Under the pieces are notes generated by a model. That model had not been told where the DNA came from. It was given only the letters and a program-made list of their open reading frames with translations, and did not search any database. From NCBI GenBank assembly GCA_029559475.1, contig JAKQBN010000076.1, positions 1 through 64,000 of the forward strand: a stretch of DNA of 64,000 bases, given 5' to 3'. Of this stretch, positions 35,762 through 46,054 are shown piece by piece (positions within the stretch are counted from its first letter, which is position 1; each line of letters opens with the position of its first letter). This DNA is from a bacterium (lineage in GTDB: Bacteria; UBA4055). The position numbers and the translations under genes are program-made.

Positions 35762-36724
35762 TTACTTTAGTTTTAGAATGTAAACTTTATGAATTTTCTT
35801 ATCTCTGAACCCGTCAGGTATCGTTTTGTGGCTGATATCCTCTATAATGAACTTTCCGTTCAGCTCTTCATCCATCTTGAACTTTCTTGAATTGGTGCTG
35901 AACATTATTATGCTTTCATTTCCTCTCAGCAGCTTTGATGCTGAAAGTATCAGATCCGGATGATCCCTGTTCACATCGAACATCTCCTCCATCTTCTTTG
36001 ATCTTGAAATTGTCGGAGGATCTATAATAATAATATCGTATCTTTCTTTTCTTTCTGATGCCTGTCTGAGATATTTTGAGCAGTCTTCACGTATGATCTT
36101 ATTCTGAGCAAGATCAAATCCGTTCAGGATCATATTTTCGCGTGCCCAGTCTGAATATGTGTTTGACATATCAACGCTAACGGTTCCTGAAGATCCGGCT
36201 TTTGCGCAGTAAAGCGAAAATGATGCCGTGTAGCTGTATAAATTCAAAACAGCTTTCCCTGATGCCTGCTTAGCGATAAATTCCCTTGCAGGTCTGTGGT
36301 CTAAAAACAGTCCGCTGTCCAGATAGTCTTTAAGATTTATATAAAAGGATATTCCGTTCTCTCTTACGGTGAAGAAATCACGGCTGTCAGACAGTTTCTC
36401 ATACTGCTCAAGCAGTGCTCTTTTCTTTCTGACCTTCCAGAATACTTCATTGATCTTAATTCCGAAAATGGTGCTTAAACCGGTCTCAATTATTTCTTTA
36501 AGCGCAGTAGGAACATCTTCCGATTCGTCATTTGAATAATACTGAACAAGAAATTTTCCCGCATAATGATCTATCGAGAATTGAAATTCAGGAATATCCC
36601 TGTCGTAAACTCTGAAACAGTCGCTTTCAGTTTTCTTTGCCTGTTTTTTGAAATGCTTATAATTTTTAACTATCCTGTTGATTAAAGGATGGTCATAGGT
36701 ATTTATTATATCCGGAATTCTCAT
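35762..36724 (-). CDS. RlmK-like class I SAM-dependent rRNA methyltransferase
   Basis: A 320-residue protein resembling the C-terminal (RlmK) half of RlmKL, which methylates a guanosine of 23S rRNA, and related to RlmI. An N-terminal RNA-binding-like part precedes the catalytic domain: DSGLFLDHRPAR, the SAM loop LNLYSYTASFSLYCAKAG, VDMSNTYSDWARENM, and the catalytic DPPTISRSKKM. All key segments are intact. The THUMP and RlmL parts are absent, so it is a free-standing enzyme. The exact target base cannot be set from sequence alone. Confidence 0.82.
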   Translation of the reverse strand: MRIPDIINTYDHPLINRIVKNYKHFKKQAKKTESDCFRVYDRDIPEFQFSIDHYAGKFLVQYYSNDESEDVPTALKEIIETGLSTIFGIKINEVFWKVRKKRALLEQYEKLSDSRDFFTVRENGISFYINLKDYLDSGLFLDHRPAREFIAKQASGKAVLNLYSYTASFSLYCAKAGSSGTVSVDMSNTYSDWARENMILNGFDLAQNKIIREDCSKYLRQASERKERYDIIIIDPPTISRSKKMEEMFDVNRDHPDLILSASKLLRGNESIIMFSTNSRKFKMDEELNGKFIIEDISHKTIPDGFRDKKIHKVYILKLK

Positions 36725-36764
36725 TTCTGATCAGATTATCCTGCGCCTGTTTATTCTTTAGTTT

Positions 36765-36793
36765 ATTATAAGTGTTTTTTTTGTCAAAAGCAA
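36765..36793 (-). promoter_or_regulatory. Predicted promoter of the methyltransferase-fhs unit
   Basis: On the minus strand TTGCTT (36793-36788) and a consensus TATAAT (36770-36765) have a 17-base spacer and lie 40 bases upstream of the start at 36724. Confidence 0.65.
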
Positions 36794-36817
36794 AATTATT
36801 AATTGTTCAATAAAGTG

Positions 36818-36846
36818 TTGCGTTTTTGTTATTAAAAATCTATAAT
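36818..36846 (+). promoter_or_regulatory. Predicted promoter of mtnA-ogt
   Basis: TTGCGT (36818-36823) and TATAAT (36841-36846) with a 17-base spacer. Transcription would begin near 36853, which excludes the in-frame ATG at 36826 as the start of the following gene and supports the CTG at 36883. Confidence 0.68.
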
Positions 36847-36882
36847 ATAAGACTTATTATTGTTAACAGAAGGAGACAGCAT

Positions 36883-37923
36883 CTGAAGTTTGATGGAAAG
36901 AAATATCATTCTATATGGTATGATAGAGATAAAGTTTATATTATTGATCAGCGATCCCTGCCTGAAAAATTCGTAATAGAAAAGATAAGAACTTCAAAAG
37001 AAATGATCGCCGCCATTACCGACATGCATCTTCGCGGCGCGCCTTTGATAGGGGTCGCGGGAGCTTACGGCACATTTTTCGCTTATAGGGAATCCTTTTC
37101 AAAACCCGAACCTGAAGAATATTATGAAAATATGATCAGCAAGCTGAGAAACTGCAGGCCTACAGCAGTAAACCTTTCATGGGGAGTTCAAAAGATTGAT
37201 GGTCTGATCAAAATGGGACTTGAGCTTGACAGAGTGCTGGCCGCGGTCAAAACGCTCGAAAGAAATGAGATCGAATGCTGTAAAAGAATAGGCGCGAACG
37301 GAGTAGCACTGATAAGAGAAATATTCAACGTAACCGGCAGAACGGTAAATATAATGACGCACTGTAACGCAGGATGGCTCGCTACGGTAAATTACGGAAC
37401 AGCATCGGCTCCTGTGTTCAGAGCGAGAGACGAAGAAATAAACATTCACGTATGGGTAAGCGAAACGAGACCGAGAAATCAGGGCGGGAAGCTCACAGCC
37501 TGGGAATATTTTCATGAGAACATCAGCCACACAGTAGTATCTGACAGTTCCTGCGGTCATCTTATGCAGAATAAAATGGTCGATCTCGTGATAGTCGGCG
37601 CCGACAGGATCGCGAAGAACGGTGATACGGCCAACAAGATAGGAACTTATTTAAAAGCCCTGGCTGCAAAATATAACAATATACCCTTTTACATAGCCGC
37701 GCCTGTTTCTACAATCGATTTTTCAATAAAGAGCGGTCGGGACATTCCGATCGAGGAAAGAGATGAAAATGAACTCAAATATATGAACGAGGCTCCATTG
37801 ATACACGAGCTTTCTCCAGCGCTCAATTATGCTTTCGACATCACTCCTGCAGAACTGATAACCGGATTCATCACTGAAAAAGGGATATTTAAACCGGCTG
37901 AACTCTTGAGACTTACTTTATGA
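36883..37923 (+). CDS. mtnA: S-methyl-5-thioribose-1-phosphate isomerase, CTG start
   Basis: A 346-residue enzyme of the methionine salvage pathway, isomerising methylthioribose 1-phosphate to methylthioribulose 1-phosphate. The motifs DMHLRGAPLIGVAGAYG, NIMTHCNAGWLA (catalytic Cys), WVSETRPRNQGG and VIVGADRIAKNGDTANKIGT (catalytic Asp) are complete. The best start is a CTG: AGAAGGAGAC lies seven bases upstream, the predicted promoter is just before, and the encoded protein begins as in other MtnA proteins. Because mtnB, mtnK or mtnN are not visible, and because the family includes ribose-1-phosphate isomerase relatives, the substrate is likely but not certain. The end overlaps ogt by four bases. 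Confidence 0.9.
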   Translation: MKFDGKKYHSIWYDRDKVYIIDQRSLPEKFVIEKIRTSKEMIAAITDMHLRGAPLIGVAGAYGTFFAYRESFSKPEPEEYYENMISKLRNCRPTAVNLSWGVQKIDGLIKMGLELDRVLAAVKTLERNEIECCKRIGANGVALIREIFNVTGRTVNIMTHCNAGWLATVNYGTASAPVFRARDEEINIHVWVSETRPRNQGGKLTAWEYFHENISHTVVSDSSCGHLMQNKMVDLVIVGADRIAKNGDTANKIGTYLKALAAKYNNIPFYIAAPVSTIDFSIKSGRDIPIEERDENELKYMNEAPLIHELSPALNYAFDITPAELITGFITEKGIFKPAELLRLTL

Positions 37924-38836: not shown

Positions 38837-39589
38837 TTAAATAAAATCTTCTTCCGCTGTCTTATCATCCTTTTTAAAAAATCTGAAATAAATGATCAAA
38901 AATATTATTACAGCTAATGTGCAGACGAGTGACTGAACCGGATGATCTACAAGAAGAAGTGCTCTGTCTATGAAAAGAGAAACCCTTCCCATAACAGTCG
39001 AACCGAAAGCAGCGCCGAAGAAGATCATTAAAACGACAATACCGGTCCTTGCTGTTTTGCCAAGCAGTCCTTTATGCGGTTTCGAGAAGAAGAAATATAT
39101 GAGCGCTGCGAAGGTACCGAATACCAGAACGATCCATTTTGTTGTTTCAAAGAACGATCCCTTATCTAGATCTGTCATTATACTTGTACTCTGAAGCATA
39201 ATATTCTGTATCGCGATCGGAATGTAGTATCCGGCCATATATCCGAACAGAAATGCGAAATAGTAGTTGGCCACCCATGCTTTCTTTCGTGAAAAACGGA
39301 AAAACATAGTTAAAGCGAGCAGAAACCAGAGAATATTTGTAATATCCGACATATGAAATTCTACGAACATATCGTTTACAGGCATAATAAAGAACGGGTC
39401 GATAATATACTCCCAGGAAAGTATCCATCCGTATCCAAGAGATACTCCAATAAAGATGTTTTCACCGATTTTATATAGCGGGTTGTCTCTGTAAAGGAAG
39501 GACATTATCATAATCGTTGCAAGAACCGGTACCCATGTCACAAAGACATCGTTCAGAAAAATATTATCAAGAACAGCTTTTAAGTCCAT
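38837..39589 (-). CDS. Multi-pass membrane protein, last gene of the four-gene cassette
   Basis: A 250-residue integral membrane protein with about seven hydrophobic helices (for example FVTWVPVLATIMIMSFLY, IVLVFGTFAALIYFFF and SLVCTLAVIIFLIIYF) and a charged cytoplasmic tail. It starts two bases after the stop of the upstream gene with an AGAGG site. No transporter or enzyme motif is recognised. The conserved-looking GRVSLFIDRA segment before the last helix may be functional. It is likely a partner of the other membrane protein in this cassette, since both have similar size and helix number. Confidence 0.72.
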   Translation of the reverse strand: MDLKAVLDNIFLNDVFVTWVPVLATIMIMSFLYRDNPLYKIGENIFIGVSLGYGWILSWEYIIDPFFIMPVNDMFVEFHMSDITNILWFLLALTMFFRFSRKKAWVANYYFAFLFGYMAGYYIPIAIQNIMLQSTSIMTDLDKGSFFETTKWIVLVFGTFAALIYFFFSKPHKGLLGKTARTGIVVLMIFFGAAFGSTVMGRVSLFIDRALLLVDHPVQSLVCTLAVIIFLIIYFRFFKKDDKTAEEDFI

Positions 39590-39591
39590 AT

Positions 39592-40428
39592 TTAACCTCT
39601 CTTCCTTTTGTCCATATAATAGACAATGTTTCCGACTATTACAAAACCGAAAATAACCAGATGGGAGAATGTAAGTGATGACATCCCTTTTGTCGCGCTT
39701 CCGTAGTAGTTCCTTTCGTATTTATCACTGACAAGCCTTTCGTATTCAGCTGCCCCTCTTAACCCGTTCGCCATACCTGTTATTTGTCCTGTCTGCAGAT
39801 ACGGAACGAAATCAGGTCCCATTACACCTGTTACAGCGATACCGAATTTATAATTGAACCTTATCTGCATATCAACGTGAGTAAAATGGTATGCGGATCC
39901 GGAAAGTCCGATCATATATTTAATATCCCTCAGAGTTTCCACACCCTCAAATATTTTACCTTCTTTCTTATACGTTCCTTTAAAATCAACATCCATGTTG
40001 AAGATCCTGATGTCAGCTGCGATCGGGACATACTCCATATTTATATAATGAATACCCTCCCTTGCCCAGTTGAATTCTTCCATGGCTGTGATATTCTTTA
40101 CGCTTTCTTTACCTAGATTGATTCCGTTGATAGAAGCGTAGTAAATGAACACTTTTACTTTTTTCTTCAGACAGTGCTTGAAAAAAGCCTCGAACATCGG
40201 CAGAAGCTCCGCTTTTGAACTCGGATCGAAAGCCCAGTCGATAAAAACCGCGTCTCCTTCGTTTAATCCTTCTATCTCATCGAAGATCTGCTTCGTTTCT
40301 TTTGTGGGAGATACCGGGAATATAAGAAAATCGAATCCTGGCAGAAGGGGTATTATAATTGATAAAAACACCAGCAGATATATTATCCTTCTGTCTATCT
40401 TCTTAAGTTTTTCCAGAATTTTTTTCAT
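39592..40428 (-). CDS. Membrane-anchored alpha/beta-domain protein of the cassette
   Basis: A 278-residue protein with transmembrane helices at about 16-36 and 250-270 and a 210-residue domain between them. The domain reads as alternating strands and helices (GDAVFIDWAFDPS, KVKVFIYYASINGIN, YMIGLSGSAYHF) and ends in FGIAVTGVMGPDFVPYLQTG and GLRGAAEYERL. That last stretch is similar in layout to the end of the alpha/beta domain of the first gene of the cassette, so the two may be distant relatives. TAAGGAAA ribosome site. Function unknown. Confidence 0.7.
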   Translation of the reverse strand: MKKILEKLKKIDRRIIYLLVFLSIIIPLLPGFDFLIFPVSPTKETKQIFDEIEGLNEGDAVFIDWAFDPSSKAELLPMFEAFFKHCLKKKVKVFIYYASINGINLGKESVKNITAMEEFNWAREGIHYINMEYVPIAADIRIFNMDVDFKGTYKKEGKIFEGVETLRDIKYMIGLSGSAYHFTHVDMQIRFNYKFGIAVTGVMGPDFVPYLQTGQITGMANGLRGAAEYERLVSDKYERNYYGSATKGMSSLTFSHLVIFGFVIVGNIVYYMDKRKRG

Positions 40429-40450
40429 TGTGAATTTCCTTAAGTTTTAA

Positions 40451-41065
40451 TTATTCTGACAGGTGGGATCTTTCTAGTCCGAAAAAGATCCTTATCATCA
40501 TTGTTATAGAACCGAGATAGCCGCCGAAAATGATGGCTCTTCTTCCAGCGCTTGAAGGAGAATCCATTATCCATTCGCCTATAACCGGTATCTGAGACCA
40601 TATCTCGCCTCCGAGAGGTATCTTGCTGAGCATAACGATTATCGAAGCGACAAGCAGCACTCCCGACTCGACCGATTTCGCCTTGAATGACCTGTATGCA
40701 GCGGATGCAATGTAAAAAGCGAGAAGGGAGAAAACGGTAGCCTGGAACGGTACGTAAACGTTCATGAACATCGAGCTGAAAGGAGTTCCTGAAGAAGTTC
40801 CGCTGATAACACCTAAGAAGATCATTAGAAAGATCATGGCGACACGCAGTATCGCATAATATCTTTCGTTATTGTATTTTATCTTGTAATAATTCTGTCG
40901 GGCTACGGAATATACACCAACAGCTACACCCACTACTCCGGCTATCTTTAATCCGTTCGCAAAGAAAAGCTTCTGGTTCTCCTGGAACATCCCCGCAATA
41001 AAGAATTCGCCGTACCACAGGATCCCCGTTATGATCCCCAGCAGTATTGGTATTTCTTTTTTCAT
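40451..41065 (-). CDS. Six-helix membrane protein of the cassette
   Basis: A 204-residue integral membrane protein with six predicted transmembrane helices (starting with IPILLGIITGILWYGEFF and ending with FGGYLGSITMMIRIFFG). A loop TSSGTPFSSMFMNVYVPFQ and another with GEIWSQIPVIGEWIMDSPSS contain most of the polar residues. It is preceded by AAAAGGA and lies 29 bases after the first gene of the cassette. No known family was recognised. Confidence 0.7.
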   Translation of the reverse strand: MKKEIPILLGIITGILWYGEFFIAGMFQENQKLFFANGLKIAGVVGVAVGVYSVARQNYYKIKYNNERYYAILRVAMIFLMIFLGVISGTSSGTPFSSMFMNVYVPFQATVFSLLAFYIASAAYRSFKAKSVESGVLLVASIIVMLSKIPLGGEIWSQIPVIGEWIMDSPSSAGRRAIIFGGYLGSITMMIRIFFGLERSHLSE

Positions 41066-41094
41066 ATTATATTATTCCTTTTTCTAATTCTTTA

Positions 41095-42945
41095 TTAGTA
41101 AGTACTTAACAGATCGGATATTACCGTCCAGTCGGAATTTATAGTAAGCAGTATGGTTCCTAAAAGGAAAAGCGCTCCGAATATTACTTTACCGTAATCC
41201 GATAGCTTAAGGTTCGAAAGAACCTGAGCATCCCTGGATAGATATGCCGCCGCAGCGTACAACTCTTCCCCGATCAAAGTATAATCGCATGAAGTTATGA
41301 AGAAAGGAAGCTGAGTTGCTTCTGTTGTACCTGCCACTTGAATAGCTCCGGCTGCGAATCCGGCTTCTGATATTAGAAGCGATTCAGCCGCGTAGTATCC
41401 GAAGTGTAGTGCTGTAGCAGGTTTTTTCCTTGCGATCAGTCCCGAAAGACCCGCGGCATAAGCGAACTGGTCGCTTACCATAAAGAAACAGTTGTCTTTT
41501 TTATGATCTTCAGGATACCCGGCGTCCAGAAATCCTGATGAAATCATTTCTTCTGCTATCTGAAGTACAACAGGATCGTAAGCGGGGTAAATTATCTCAG
41601 CCTTGAATTCTGCCACTTTCTTCGCAACGCTTCTTAATATAAGCATACTTGCGATGGTCTGCGGGCTGGAAAATCCTCCCAATCCTGAATCGTAAATGAT
41701 AGGTTTGCCCATCTCGGTAGCCCTTCCTACAGCATCATCTATCGCATCAAGCCCCGGTATCCTTCTTATATAAATAGAATCTCTTTTCTTTTTTACTGTC
41801 GTGAATACATAGAAGAATAGTCCGAAAAAAAACAGCGATGCGATTAATATATTCAAACGGTATTTTCTAATTCCTTTTTCGACTTCGAACCTGAAATAGA
41901 CTTTGAACTTTGAATTAAGATCGTTATAAAATTTTGCCCTGAGCAGATATTTAAGATATGCTTCTGTATCAGAGCTTTTTGTATATAGCTTATGGATCAG
42001 TGTGCTGTTAACGTCATACTGGCCCGGTGACTGCATAAATCCTGAAATTACGGTTGTCAGCCTTGAAATTTCGGCGGACTTAAGCTTGTCTATGTTGACC
42101 TTTCTTGCTTCGATCCACTTATTGTAAAGCTTTTTTTCAAGATCTCTGTCGCCTGCAAGAGCCGCTGCCTCCTTTTTCGCATAAAGAGTATCGATATCGT
42201 CAGTTATCTTTTTTGCGAATTCAGCTTCTTTCTTGTCCACTTCAGCTGCAAGTCTGTCAGAAATATCCTGAAGTTTATTCTTTACGTTATCTTCGATGTA
42301 AAGAAAGTAGACCCTTTTATCAGTTACCCTCGTTATCTCGTTGTAAACAGAGGTAAGCATCTCGTCGAAGGCGATGCTGTACCTTCTGATATTTTTGAAT
42401 ACCGGTCTTAGTGCTGATACCGATGAGGATATCTGATCGTTGTTCTCTCTGACAAGAATTTCTTCCAAAACTTTTATCCTGTCGAAATCAAGCTTGTCAA
42501 GATAACCTATCAGAGCAGGATTCTTCTGGTTTCCTTCGAGCTCGGCGTTCACTCTCTCAAGGTCAGCGCTGAGAATGTTCATCAGCGTTTCTGATGTTTC
42601 CATTCCGAGAATGCTCTCATAGTGTTCTTTTAGGACCGTCAGATCCTCTTTGTTCGATTCGTTCGGATCTTTACCTGCATTAAAATAATTTTCCGCGTAT
42701 GCGGTGATCCTCGGAAGAAGGATCTCATAATCCCTCGTTACATCCCATGAGTTGTATATGGCCATAAAATCTTCCGCCGCCTGCTTACAGAGCTTTTCCT
42801 CTTCGGAAAGTTCCGGAACATCATGAGCGGCCGCGACAGTGTCTGCAGCTGCGACTAATGAACCAGCCGTGGTTTCTGCGGTAGTGTCCTGGGCATATAG
42901 AACCGCTGAGAAAAGGATCGCGAGAATGACAAGAAACCGTTTCAT
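41095..42945 (-). CDS. Exported coiled-coil protein with anchored DUF6754-like domain, first gene of the cassette
   Basis: A 616-residue protein. The start at 42945 has AAAAGG upstream. A signal peptide (LFSAVLYA) is followed by an Ala/Thr-rich stretch, a long helical region to about residue 360, a transmembrane helix at 365-383, an alpha/beta domain at about 395-575 and a last transmembrane helix at about 584-604. The domain has striking segments: MGKPIIYDSGLGGFSS, FFMVSDQFAYAAGLSG, GYYAAESLLISEAGF and SCDYTLIGEELYAAAAYLSRD. From memory these match the DUF6754 domain; that was not checked. It heads a four-gene membrane operon and is probably the core of that complex. Confidence 0.75.
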   Translation of the reverse strand: MKRFLVILAILFSAVLYAQDTTAETTAGSLVAAADTVAAAHDVPELSEEEKLCKQAAEDFMAIYNSWDVTRDYEILLPRITAYAENYFNAGKDPNESNKEDLTVLKEHYESILGMETSETLMNILSADLERVNAELEGNQKNPALIGYLDKLDFDRIKVLEEILVRENNDQISSSVSALRPVFKNIRRYSIAFDEMLTSVYNEITRVTDKRVYFLYIEDNVKNKLQDISDRLAAEVDKKEAEFAKKITDDIDTLYAKKEAAALAGDRDLEKKLYNKWIEARKVNIDKLKSAEISRLTTVISGFMQSPGQYDVNSTLIHKLYTKSSDTEAYLKYLLRAKFYNDLNSKFKVYFRFEVEKGIRKYRLNILIASLFFFGLFFYVFTTVKKKRDSIYIRRIPGLDAIDDAVGRATEMGKPIIYDSGLGGFSSPQTIASMLILRSVAKKVAEFKAEIIYPAYDPVVLQIAEEMISSGFLDAGYPEDHKKDNCFFMVSDQFAYAAGLSGLIARKKPATALHFGYYAAESLLISEAGFAAGAIQVAGTTEATQLPFFITSCDYTLIGEELYAAAAYLSRDAQVLSNLKLSDYGKVIFGALFLLGTILLTINSDWTVISDLLSTY

Positions 42946-43081
42946 AAGCACCTTTTCATTTATTTAGAATTATTTTACTGAACGATTTTAGCATTTCTTC
43001 TGCTCTTTTTTTGAAACAGTTTGCTATATAAATAATTATATCGCGAAAATCAACCTCAAATATTAAATTCTGAAGGTTCGC

Positions 43082-43110: not shown

Positions 43111-43135
43111 CTTTTGATTGAAAAGCGGAGCCTAT

Positions 43136-46054
43136 ATGAAAAAAATTGTAATTCTCCTGATTTTCTGCGCCTTTACATTAATTAACGCAACTTTACCAAA
43201 AACGTATGATTGCGTCAAAACGTCAGAGCAGATGACTGTTGACGGTAAAGCTTTGGAACTAAGCTGGAGTGCAGCTCAGTGGACAGATTATTTTATTGAC
43301 ATAGAAGGTGATTATAAGCCTCTTCCCTATTACAAAACCAGGGTCAAGATGCTCTGGGATGATGAATATTTGTATTTTTATGCGGAAATGGAAGAAGATC
43401 ATATCTGGGCATATCTGTCGGAAAGGGACGCGGTGATCTACCATGACAATGACTTTGAAATATTTATCGATCCCGACAACGATACTTTCAATTATTACGA
43501 ACTTGAATTTAACGCTTTAGGAACGCTATGGGATCTTATGCTGACTAAGCCCTACAAAGATAACGGACAGGCTGTCGATGCATGGGATGTCAGAGGTATT
43601 AAATACGCGATCGATCTAAATGGCACTCTCAACGACCCGTCAGATAAAGATGAAGGATGGAAAATTGAAGTCGCCATTCCGTGGTCCGCTCTTGAGGAAT
43701 GCGCGAGACACAACGGAGCACCCTATCCCGGCGAAGAATGGAAGATCAATTTCTCAAGAGTCGAATGGGATACTGACATTATTGGAGGGAAATACATAAA
43801 AAAGACCGGTCATCCGGAGCATAACTGGGTCTGGTCTCCCCAGGGTGAAATTGCAATGCATATACCTCAAAGATGGGGGAGCGTAAAATTTGTTTATCCT
43901 TTAAGTCTTGTGAGCAAAGGCGGAAGCGCATATTCCATCGTTATCCCGAAAAAAGCATCAAGGGAAGAGATCCGGGCATCCAAGCTGCTAAAAGATTATA
44001 TAAAAAAAGTAACTGACTGCGACCTTCCGGTCTCAGTTTCGGACAAACCTGCCAAAGGAAAATCAATAATGATTTCCAAGTCTGATAGCATTTCCGAAGC
44101 GGACGGATTCTTAGTCAGAACCGATAATGAGAACATCATAATCGAGGGCGGAGATGATAAAGGATGCATTTACGGGGTCTGCGAGTTTCTGGAGCGGTTC
44201 GCCGGGATAAAATATTACAGCCCCGACTATGTATTGATCCCGAAAAATATGGACATCGGACTTCCCTGTATCAATATTTCAGGTTCGTCGCCTAACACTT
44301 ACAGAAACGTTCACGGAACATTTACCGAGAATCAGGATTACAAGGATTTCAGACGCCTTGATGACATCAGAGATGCTTTCGCTGACAATTATTACGTTCA
44401 TACTTTCAACAAACTTGTTCCGTGGCAGACATATTTTAAAGATCATCCGGAATATTTCTGTTATATGAACGGAAAAAGGATAATAGACCAGCTCTGCCTT
44501 ACAAATCCTGATGTTCTCAAAATAACTGTCGAAAAACTAAAGAAGGAAATGAAACGGCAGCCCGATCATAAAGTTTGGTCTGTAAGCCAGAATGATAATT
44601 TTTCATACTGTCAGTGCGATAAGTGTAAAAAGATCATAGAAGAGGAAAAAAGCCCCGCCGGACCGCTGATCAGATTCGTGAATAAAGTCGCGGAAAAATT
44701 TCCTGATAAAACCATTTCCACACTAGCTTATGAATGGAGTAGAAAAGCGCCTGAAACAACAAAACCTCGGGATAATGTTCAGGTGATGCTCTGCACTATA
44801 GAGCTTAATAGAAGCAGATCCATTGAGACAGATCCCGGCAGCGCGTCTTTTCTTACCGATATAGATGAGTGGAGAAAGATCTGCGATTATATTTACCTTT
44901 GGGATTATACCGTCGATTTTGCGCATCATTACTGCCCGTTCCCTAATCTACATGTTCTTCAGCCTAACATTCGGCTTTTTGTAAGTAAAGGAGTTAAAGA
45001 GCATTTCCAGCAGTCGAACACAGCGACCGGACACGAATTTTCGGAATTAAAATCATATCTCCTTTCAAAACTGTTATGGGATCCGGATTCAGACGCAAAA
45101 AAAATAATTGATGAATTCATCGACGGTTACTATGGAAAAGCCGCACCGTGGATCAGAAGATACATTTATCATCTTCAGGACGAAGTGATTAAGACAGGTG
45201 AACGGCTAGATATTTACGGTCCGCCTACAAATTATAAAAATACTTTCCTTTCAGCTCAGAACATCTCTGACTATAATTATTATTTCGATGAGGCTGAAAA
45301 AGCATCGGCGGAAGATACTGTAAAACTTCTTCATGTGCGTACAGCCAGAATGCAGCTTCAGTACGCGATGATGGAGATCGGAAAAAGCGATATGTTCGGA
45401 ACCCGCGGCTGGTACGTCGAAAAAAACGGCGACTTTACTCCGGATGAAAAAATGATGAACGCTCTCAATTCATTCGAGAGAACGGCAATCGAAGCCGGCT
45501 GTAAATATGTTAATGAATCCTGCCTTTCCGTTGAAGAATACTGCGCATCCACAAAAAGATTTATCAATATGCAGGTCAAAGATAATCTCGCTTTCAGAAA
45601 GAAGGTTAAGGCGGATCCGCTGCCGGCTCAAAAATATAGTGGCGGAGACCTTGCTCTACTCACGAACGGCGTAAGGGGAGCTAACGATTTCAGAGTTCAC
45701 TGGCTTGGTTGGGAGGCTCAGGACTGTTCGCTTACGCTCGATCTGGATATGATAACTCCTGCTTCCAGGATCGAAATTTCGACACTCTGGGACCCGACAA
45801 GCTGGATCTTCCATCCTCTTTCGATCTCATGTTCGGTATCTGATGACGGCTTCAGCTACAGATTTATTGATAAGCATTCAGTCGTTACGGATCAGAAAGA
45901 GGATAGCGTGAACAGAACATTCGCTTTCAACACTCCGGCTCAGAAGTTCAGATATATCAGATTTGAAATAAAAGGTACGATACACAATTACGACTGGCAT
46001 GCATCTGCAGGAGGGGATTCGTGGTTCTTCGTCGATGAGATCGTAGTAAAATAA
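43136..46054 (+). CDS. Secreted CBM9 / DUF4838 multi-domain glycan-acting protein
   Basis: A 972-residue exported protein. The start at 43136 has GGAG six bases upstream. After the signal peptide (FCAFTLINA), residues about 15-270 form a CBM9-like carbohydrate-binding domain (VKMLWDDEYLYFYAEME, NDFEIFIDPDND, GWKIEVAIPWSAL). About 275-370 resemble the accessory domain of family 20 hexosaminidases (KKASREEIRASKLLKDYI, CIYGVCEFLERFAG), and about 410-700 form the DUF4838 barrel (WSVSQNDNFSYCQCDKC). The C-terminal 150 residues read as a discoidin-like (F5/8 type C) sandwich. The proteins of this kind are thought to act on alpha-linked uronic or hexosamine polymers; no sugar can be assigned here. 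Confidence 0.85.
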   Translation: MKKIVILLIFCAFTLINATLPKTYDCVKTSEQMTVDGKALELSWSAAQWTDYFIDIEGDYKPLPYYKTRVKMLWDDEYLYFYAEMEEDHIWAYLSERDAVIYHDNDFEIFIDPDNDTFNYYELEFNALGTLWDLMLTKPYKDNGQAVDAWDVRGIKYAIDLNGTLNDPSDKDEGWKIEVAIPWSALEECARHNGAPYPGEEWKINFSRVEWDTDIIGGKYIKKTGHPEHNWVWSPQGEIAMHIPQRWGSVKFVYPLSLVSKGGSAYSIVIPKKASREEIRASKLLKDYIKKVTDCDLPVSVSDKPAKGKSIMISKSDSISEADGFLVRTDNENIIIEGGDDKGCIYGVCEFLERFAGIKYYSPDYVLIPKNMDIGLPCINISGSSPNTYRNVHGTFTENQDYKDFRRLDDIRDAFADNYYVHTFNKLVPWQTYFKDHPEYFCYMNGKRIIDQLCLTNPDVLKITVEKLKKEMKRQPDHKVWSVSQNDNFSYCQCDKCKKIIEEEKSPAGPLIRFVNKVAEKFPDKTISTLAYEWSRKAPETTKPRDNVQVMLCTIELNRSRSIETDPGSASFLTDIDEWRKICDYIYLWDYTVDFAHHYCPFPNLHVLQPNIRLFVSKGVKEHFQQSNTATGHEFSELKSYLLSKLLWDPDSDAKKIIDEFIDGYYGKAAPWIRRYIYHLQDEVIKTGERLDIYGPPTNYKNTFLSAQNISDYNYYFDEAEKASAEDTVKLLHVRTARMQLQYAMMEIGKSDMFGTRGWYVEKNGDFTPDEKMMNALNSFERTAIEAGCKYVNESCLSVEEYCASTKRFINMQVKDNLAFRKKVKADPLPAQKYSGGDLALLTNGVRGANDFRVHWLGWEAQDCSLTLDLDMITPASRIEISTLWDPTSWIFHPLSISCSVSDDGFSYRFIDKHSVVTDQKEDSVNRTFAFNTPAQKFRYIRFEIKGTIHNYDWHASAGGDSWFFVDEIVVK

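Follow-up and report, generated by a model that had tools for sequence, protein, structure and literature searches.

We find that a membrane module of four genes, which we call P1 to P4, recurs in distant bacterial genomes, and comparison of sequences shows this conserved module together with a near-obligate, shared pair of predicted cytosolic partners, a MutL-domain ATPase and a barrel-sandwich hybrid protein (MutL and BSH in the following). We regard it as close to certain that this is a conserved bacterial system that has gone undescribed. As to what the system does, we infer from the sequences that P1-P4 and MutL/BSH may together form an ATP-driven membrane complex with exchangeable modules, probably a transporter, a reading that we favour while giving it somewhat less than an even chance.

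The four genes and their proteins

The module was analysed in a window (the whole stretch of DNA under study, 64,000 nucleotides) whose nearest named records are genomes of Candidatus Delongbacteria. Its features are as follows.

41095-42945, minus strand: P1, open reading frame of 616 aa from ATG; exported N-terminal part, transmembrane segment (TM), DUF6754 domain and a second TM (predicted)
41875..42945, minus strand: exported N-terminal part of P1 (residues 1 to ~365), coiled-coil-like
41128..41868, minus strand: DUF6754 domain of P1 (residues 360-606), from the Pfam match
40451-41065, minus strand: P2, open reading frame of 204 aa; six-helix membrane protein, from family hydropathy
39592-40428, minus strand: P3, open reading frame of 278 aa; TM, predicted extracytoplasmic Rossmann-like alpha/beta domain (residues ~40-240), TM
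38837-39589, minus strand: P4, open reading frame of 250 aa; multi-pass membrane protein (5-7 helices)
38830-38807, minus strand: terminator-like hairpin 3' of P4, 10 pairs and a T-rich tail

An earlier, sequence-only reading of this DNA had described four tightly spaced minus-strand genes, and the open reading frames bear this out in position and spacing: all four genes are co-directional, with intergenic gaps of 29 (P1/P2), 22 (P2/P3) and 2 bases (P3/P4). An in-frame GTG at 42951 offers P1 an alternative start, which would give 618 aa. The strong minus-strand terminator of that reading is present as the hairpin listed above, but the hairpin scores on the plus strand as well, so we take it to be bidirectional and to lie between converging genes.

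All four proteins had been described as lacking any known family motif, which holds for P2, P3 and P4 and fails for P1. Residues 360-606 of P1 belong to the Pfam family PF20539 (DUF6754), with a profile score well above the gathering score (4e-91, 305.2 bits, cut-off 27); the family is named in Pfam and given no function there. The conserved motifs of the domain are GRATEMG, DQF, ESL..E.G, GAIQ.AGT, QLPFF and CDYTLIGEE. For P2, P3 and P4 of the window nothing scores over the cut-off in Pfam or NCBIfam, and scans of 30 diverse relatives of each reveal no Pfam family in common. Sequence profile searches of the PDB with P1-P4 returned nothing of note, P2-P4 matching no PDB chain. Three of the four membrane subunits are thus nameless as families, and the fourth is without a recorded function.

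The exported N-terminal part of P1 comes in more than one type. When these regions are clustered, 20 Delongbacteria sequences fall in one cluster and 83 others in another, and the coiled-coil type is specific to the window's phylum within our sample. Most other lineages carry in its place weakly FN3/Ig-like repeats in varying number (an fn3 match of 22.7 bits lies just below the cut-off of 25); the window-type, coiled-coil N-terminal part gave no fn3 or Ig match.

Turning to the multi-pass subunits, the average hydropathy of 73 family sequences supports the six helices that had been assigned to P2. P4 had been called a seven-helix protein; it is indeed multi-pass, with five strong segments in its family-average hydropathy. 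Conserved charged residues within helices number none in P2 and one in P4, so the two proteins display no clear translocation path. A motif search across P1-P4 found no CxxC and no [ST]GAT flavin site, the sole conserved Cys being in P1. We also considered P2 and P4 as paralogues of each other and rejected this (profile-comparison probability 2%).

The distribution of positive charge gives a prediction of which face of the membrane the two soluble domains occupy. Among 122 relatives of P1, the counts of Lys plus Arg before and after the helix are 1.78 and 4.54 for TM1 and 2.19 and 0.89 for TM2. Under the positive-inside rule, this pattern predicts a cytosolic DUF6754 domain with the N-terminal part lying outside. 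The same four flanks in 113 relatives of P3 give 3.39, 1.67, 1.83 and 4.02, from which the P3 domain is predicted to be extracytoplasmic. The sequence-only reading had seen similar ends in the soluble domains of P1 and P3 and had proposed two diverged copies of one fold. The similar ends are real, as short motifs, and the common fold finds no support in profile comparison: the profile-profile probability is 0.8-1.2%, and the score of 18.7 sits within the range of column-shuffled controls (11.4-22.6). Paralogy of P1 and P3 is accordingly unsupported at the level of sequence, where all three profile comparisons stay within controls and the likeness in short windows came from the TM helices; the opposite predicted membrane faces of the two domains likewise argue against simple duplicates, although a remote common fold may still link them. 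An AlphaFold model of P3 (pLDDT 70.8, pTM 0.74) is Rossmann-like. Foldseek returned no match to this model at E<=0.001, and its best structural match, transhydrogenase domain III at VIA Z 9.1, is tied with RecJ and TON_0340; since these belong to unrelated families, the domain is assignable as Rossmann-like and to nothing narrower. The model of the P1 domain, built from a shallow alignment of 10 sequences, reached a pLDDT of 44.5 and was not used.

Conservation of the module and its cytosolic partners

How widely is this arrangement kept? In a sample of 386 genomes from 324 genera, in which about 100 P1 neighbourhoods were read, DUF6754 is found in 109 genomes, 91 genera and 67 families, with up to six copies per genome. 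It is present in 13/13 genomes of the window's family and in 0/14 well-known control genomes. Subunit profiles applied to the ~100 neighbourhoods place 109 of the 124 P1 genes in the strict order P1-P2-P3-P4, an arrangement far beyond chance, and many of the P1 genes outside this order come from fragmented loci or the edges of contigs. P3 occurs in 110/386 genomes, a list nearly identical to that for DUF6754, the differences being three extra weak P3 matches in family f93 and two DUF6754 genomes without P3. The four genes are therefore what the sequence-only reading had supposed, a dedicated set that stays together in distant genomes, and P2-P4 show no match to known transporters. The P1-P4 proteins presumably also associate physically in one complex. 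Collections of phages, plasmids and viral contigs hold no match to the set, which thus looks chromosomal rather than mobile.

Upstream of P1 in distant genomes, and co-directional with it, we find genes for a small protein (~95-130 aa), a MutL-domain protein and the BSH protein. The MutL partner (~600 aa) is a member of the GlmL-like ASKHA ATPase family, with a PF13941 domain at 6e-130, and its nucleotide-binding motifs DCGSTTTKA, GVDIGGATTD and GSGG are conserved in 26 sequences; against the GlmL equivalog NF040745 it scores 234.9 bits, below the cut-off of 475. The BSH protein (~375 aa) is encoded after MutL and often directly before P1. Its barrel is matched by RnfC_N in 18/23 members and by Biotin_lipoyl in 9/23, the RnfC_N matches being weak (best 9e-6; one member scores 17.4 bits where the cut-off is 25.6), and its C-terminus is KOW-like by weak NusG/Spt5 matches. 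A motif search of the BSH proteins found no conserved Cys, no CxxC and the biotin motif AMKM in 0/23. MutL and BSH adjoin the module in 27 loci, on its downstream side in 3 of them, with spacings often of -4 to +30 bases and often with 4-base overlaps.

The association also holds across whole genomes. BSH is present in 104/109 genomes with DUF6754 and in 0/277 of the others (one-sided Fisher p ~5e-89). Five DUF6754 genomes are without BSH and 3 of the 31 checked are without MutL; some of these absences may be assembly gaps. In the window's genome the partners are encoded on another contig, where BSH lies at C40:6865-7980 (E=3.6e-154) and immediately follows MutL, whose gene is truncated at the contig boundary so that its C-terminal part is what the contig retains. 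Because this genome carries both BSH and MutL, the window's cassette belongs to the larger system even though the partners are not adjacent to it. The earlier reading had missed both DUF6754 and these partners encoded elsewhere in the genome.

Now we consider genomes that hold more than one module. In 45 genomes with at least two modules, all outside the window's family, we count 134 DUF6754 copies against 46 full-length BSH; genomes holding two to six modules keep one full-length BSH. In a tree of 107 concatenated modules, the copies of a genome are monophyletic in only 2/20 genomes, and for 37/47 module copies the nearest relative lies in another genome, from which we conclude that the copies are mostly ancient paralogues. 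P3 is in addition duplicated on its own at two loci (L115, with four copies, and L114). Over the same 27 operons the median identity is 64% for MutL, 53% for the P1 domain, 49% for BSH, 42% for P2 and P4 and 37% for P3; an extracytoplasmic location, rather than diversity of substrates, may account for the low value of P3.

Possible modes of action

Drawing our intuition from these patterns, we can sketch how an ATP-powered transporter of this kind would work. Its cytosolic half would consist of the MutL ATPase, the BSH adaptor and, in many genomes, the small protein. P3 would present a variable ligand-binding domain on the outside, as an exchangeable outer subunit, P2 and P4 would form the path through the membrane, and the conserved P1 domain would transmit the conformational change. 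MutL would dock through BSH and, by binding and hydrolysing ATP, drive or reset the cycle, so that exchangeable membrane units would share a common energiser in a layout (not an ancestry) like that of ECF transporters. As judged from the sequences, the natural role left for MutL would be to drive conformational change in the membrane module, or to regulate the module, in an ATP-dependent way. Against the transporter reading stand the lack of a clear translocation path in P2 and P4 and, partial associations aside, the absence of any substrate-linked gene that recurs beside the modules. It is possible, if on balance doubtful, that such assemblies constitute a new class of ATP-driven membrane complex, with an ASKHA-type (GlmL-like) ATPase, a barrel-sandwich adaptor and exchangeable four-subunit modules, spread over roughly one in four of the families sampled.

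The same patterns admit other explanations. If the complex served sensing or signalling, P3 and the variable exported part of P1 would detect an external cue and the cytosolic P1 domain would signal to MutL-BSH, whose own targets would be cytosolic, with no transport involved. We think this somewhat unlikely: exported domains that vary in P1 and P3 against a strongly conserved cytosolic P1 domain, several ancient modules converging on one MutL-BSH pair, and the lack of a clear translocation path in P2 and P4 are what one would expect of it, yet the operon shows no recurrent association with an output domain (kinase, cyclase, DNA-binding), and two conserved multi-pass subunits exceed the needs of a simple sensor. 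A machine for envelope biogenesis or export, moving a polymer, lipid or protein while the FN3/Ig-like repeats of P1 contact the cell surface, would suit the varying number of these weakly FN3/Ig-like repeats as well as the chromosomal, widespread nature of the system and the lack of matches among phages, plasmids and viral contigs. Against it, the neighbourhoods show no recurring gene for the cell wall, a secretion substrate or a glycosyltransferase, and we judge this explanation unlikely.

Two further explanations start from the cytosolic pair. GlmL/Or-4 (MutL, PF13941) acts as an accessory to B12-dependent glutamate mutase and in ornithine degradation, which raises the question of whether MutL-BSH is a membrane-anchored chaperone or reactivase that services a cofactor enzyme or a lipoyl-type carrier, with P1-P4 anchoring it or delivering the cofactor. 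The GlmL-like character of MutL (235 bits to NF040745), the resemblance of BSH to biotin/lipoyl and RnfC/NqrA barrels, and the presence of a glycine-cleavage P-protein-like gene upstream in 6 loci and of a lipoate ligase gene downstream in 4 would fit such a role. But glutamate mutase E (PF06368) scores over the cut-off in 0/31 DUF6754 genomes checked, so that glutamate mutase does not account for this MutL, lysine aminomutase is found in 3/31, and the glycine-cleavage and lipoate links are confined to a few lineages, all of which makes the proposal quite unlikely in our estimate. A redox- or decarboxylation-driven ion pump akin to Rnf/NQR or to the biotin-dependent Na+ pumps is very improbable. 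It is suggested by the weak RnfC_N barrel matches next to multi-pass membrane subunits and is strongly weakened by the motif searches, which found neither a conserved Cys, CxxC or AMKM in BSH nor [ST]GAT or CxxC in P1-P4.

Comparison with known systems

The transporter reading sets the system beside several known ones, each of which it resembles in part. Like GlmL, the operon MutL has the MutL domain (PF13941) with intact nucleotide-binding motifs; unlike GlmL (~455 aa), it is ~600 aa long, falls far below the equivalog cut-off and is linked to membrane genes. The BSH protein has, by profile, a barrel similar to that of RnfC/NqrA and is likewise encoded alongside genes for a membrane complex; it differs from them in lacking Fe-S and flavin motifs and any conserved Cys, in the weakness of its RnfC_N matches, and from the biotin-dependent Na+ pumps in the absence of the AMKM biotinylation motif. 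ECF transporters consist of a pair of ABC ATPases, EcfT and an S component. One common cytosolic energiser with several exchangeable membrane units is a layout that our system may share with them, by analogy in copy-number pattern only. The ATPase here is ASKHA-type rather than ABC, the membrane proteins are unrelated and transport is at present a prediction; P2-P4 match no ECF family, and no ABC ATPase recurs within the operon.

To our knowledge, the Pfam description of DUF6754 does not extend to the obligate partners P2-P4 or to the MutL-BSH pair. Our literature search, whose coverage left out most subscription journals, found no paper naming DUF6754 or PF20539 and no described system for DUF6754 or for MutL-like or GlmL-like membrane genes. 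The main text of PMC10849945, which catalogues unknown families of uncultivated taxa on a large scale, makes no mention of DUF6754.

The strict gene order, the near-perfect co-occurrence of the partners and the presence of up to six copies per genome point to an important role in many uncultured bacteria. If MutL-BSH energises the module, ATP would be coupled to membrane work in a new manner, and, if the transporter reading is right, this would be a class of primary transport distinct from the ABC, P-type and rotary ATPases. The seven-gene operons are small enough to serve as units for expression and structural studies. In genomes that lack glutamate mutase, some GlmL-like genes form part of a membrane system.

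Genes flanking the cassette in the window

The four-gene minus-strand membrane cassette (P1 to P4) is bordered in the window by the following plus-strand genes:

43118-46054, plus strand: exported protein of 978 aa, divergent neighbour of P1
38531-38821, plus strand: 96-aa ORF with a single N-terminal hydrophobic segment

Judged by eye, the 978-aa protein looks like a carbohydrate-active enzyme. The 96-aa ORF, for which no family match over the cut-off was found, converges with P4, and a shared terminator-like hairpin lies where they meet.

Neighbours of the operon across loci

In 10 of the gene neighbourhoods (L-numbers), the operon is directly adjoined by a same-strand gene, upstream in 9 of them; its product, about 140-150 aa in length, contains two hydrophobic segments:

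L121, 3709-4128
L120, 6359-6862
L103, 11182-11625
seven other loci

This protein, which lacked a Pfam match in both members tested, is a possible further subunit. Elsewhere we find a glycine-cleavage P-protein-like gene upstream in six loci (L054, L095, L101, L105, L131, L132) and a lipoate-protein-ligase gene downstream in four (L044, L119, L131, L132); these may point to a connection with lipoyl or glycine metabolism. The second module type of Delongbacteria (L060, L062, L065, L081, L083) is preceded by genes for a TPP-dependent 2-oxoacid oxidoreductase pair and by a DAP-epimerase-like gene.

MutL-BSH fusions and a lysine 5,6-aminomutase-type protein

Besides the stand-alone pair of MutL (a GlmL-like ASKHA ATPase) and BSH (a barrel-sandwich hybrid protein), the window's genome encodes single-protein fusions of the two, about 940-980 aa long, and also a lysine 5,6-aminomutase-type protein:

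L145, 6263-9199, and L146, 3443-6262 (contigs C10 and C62): MutL-BSH fusions
contig C79 of the same genome (G000), 36177-37700: lysine 5,6-aminomutase-type gene, PF09043 match

The genes around the fusions gave no clear functional pointer; several other genomes encode similar fusions. The aminomutase-type protein (PF09043, 903 bits) is rare in relatives of this genome.
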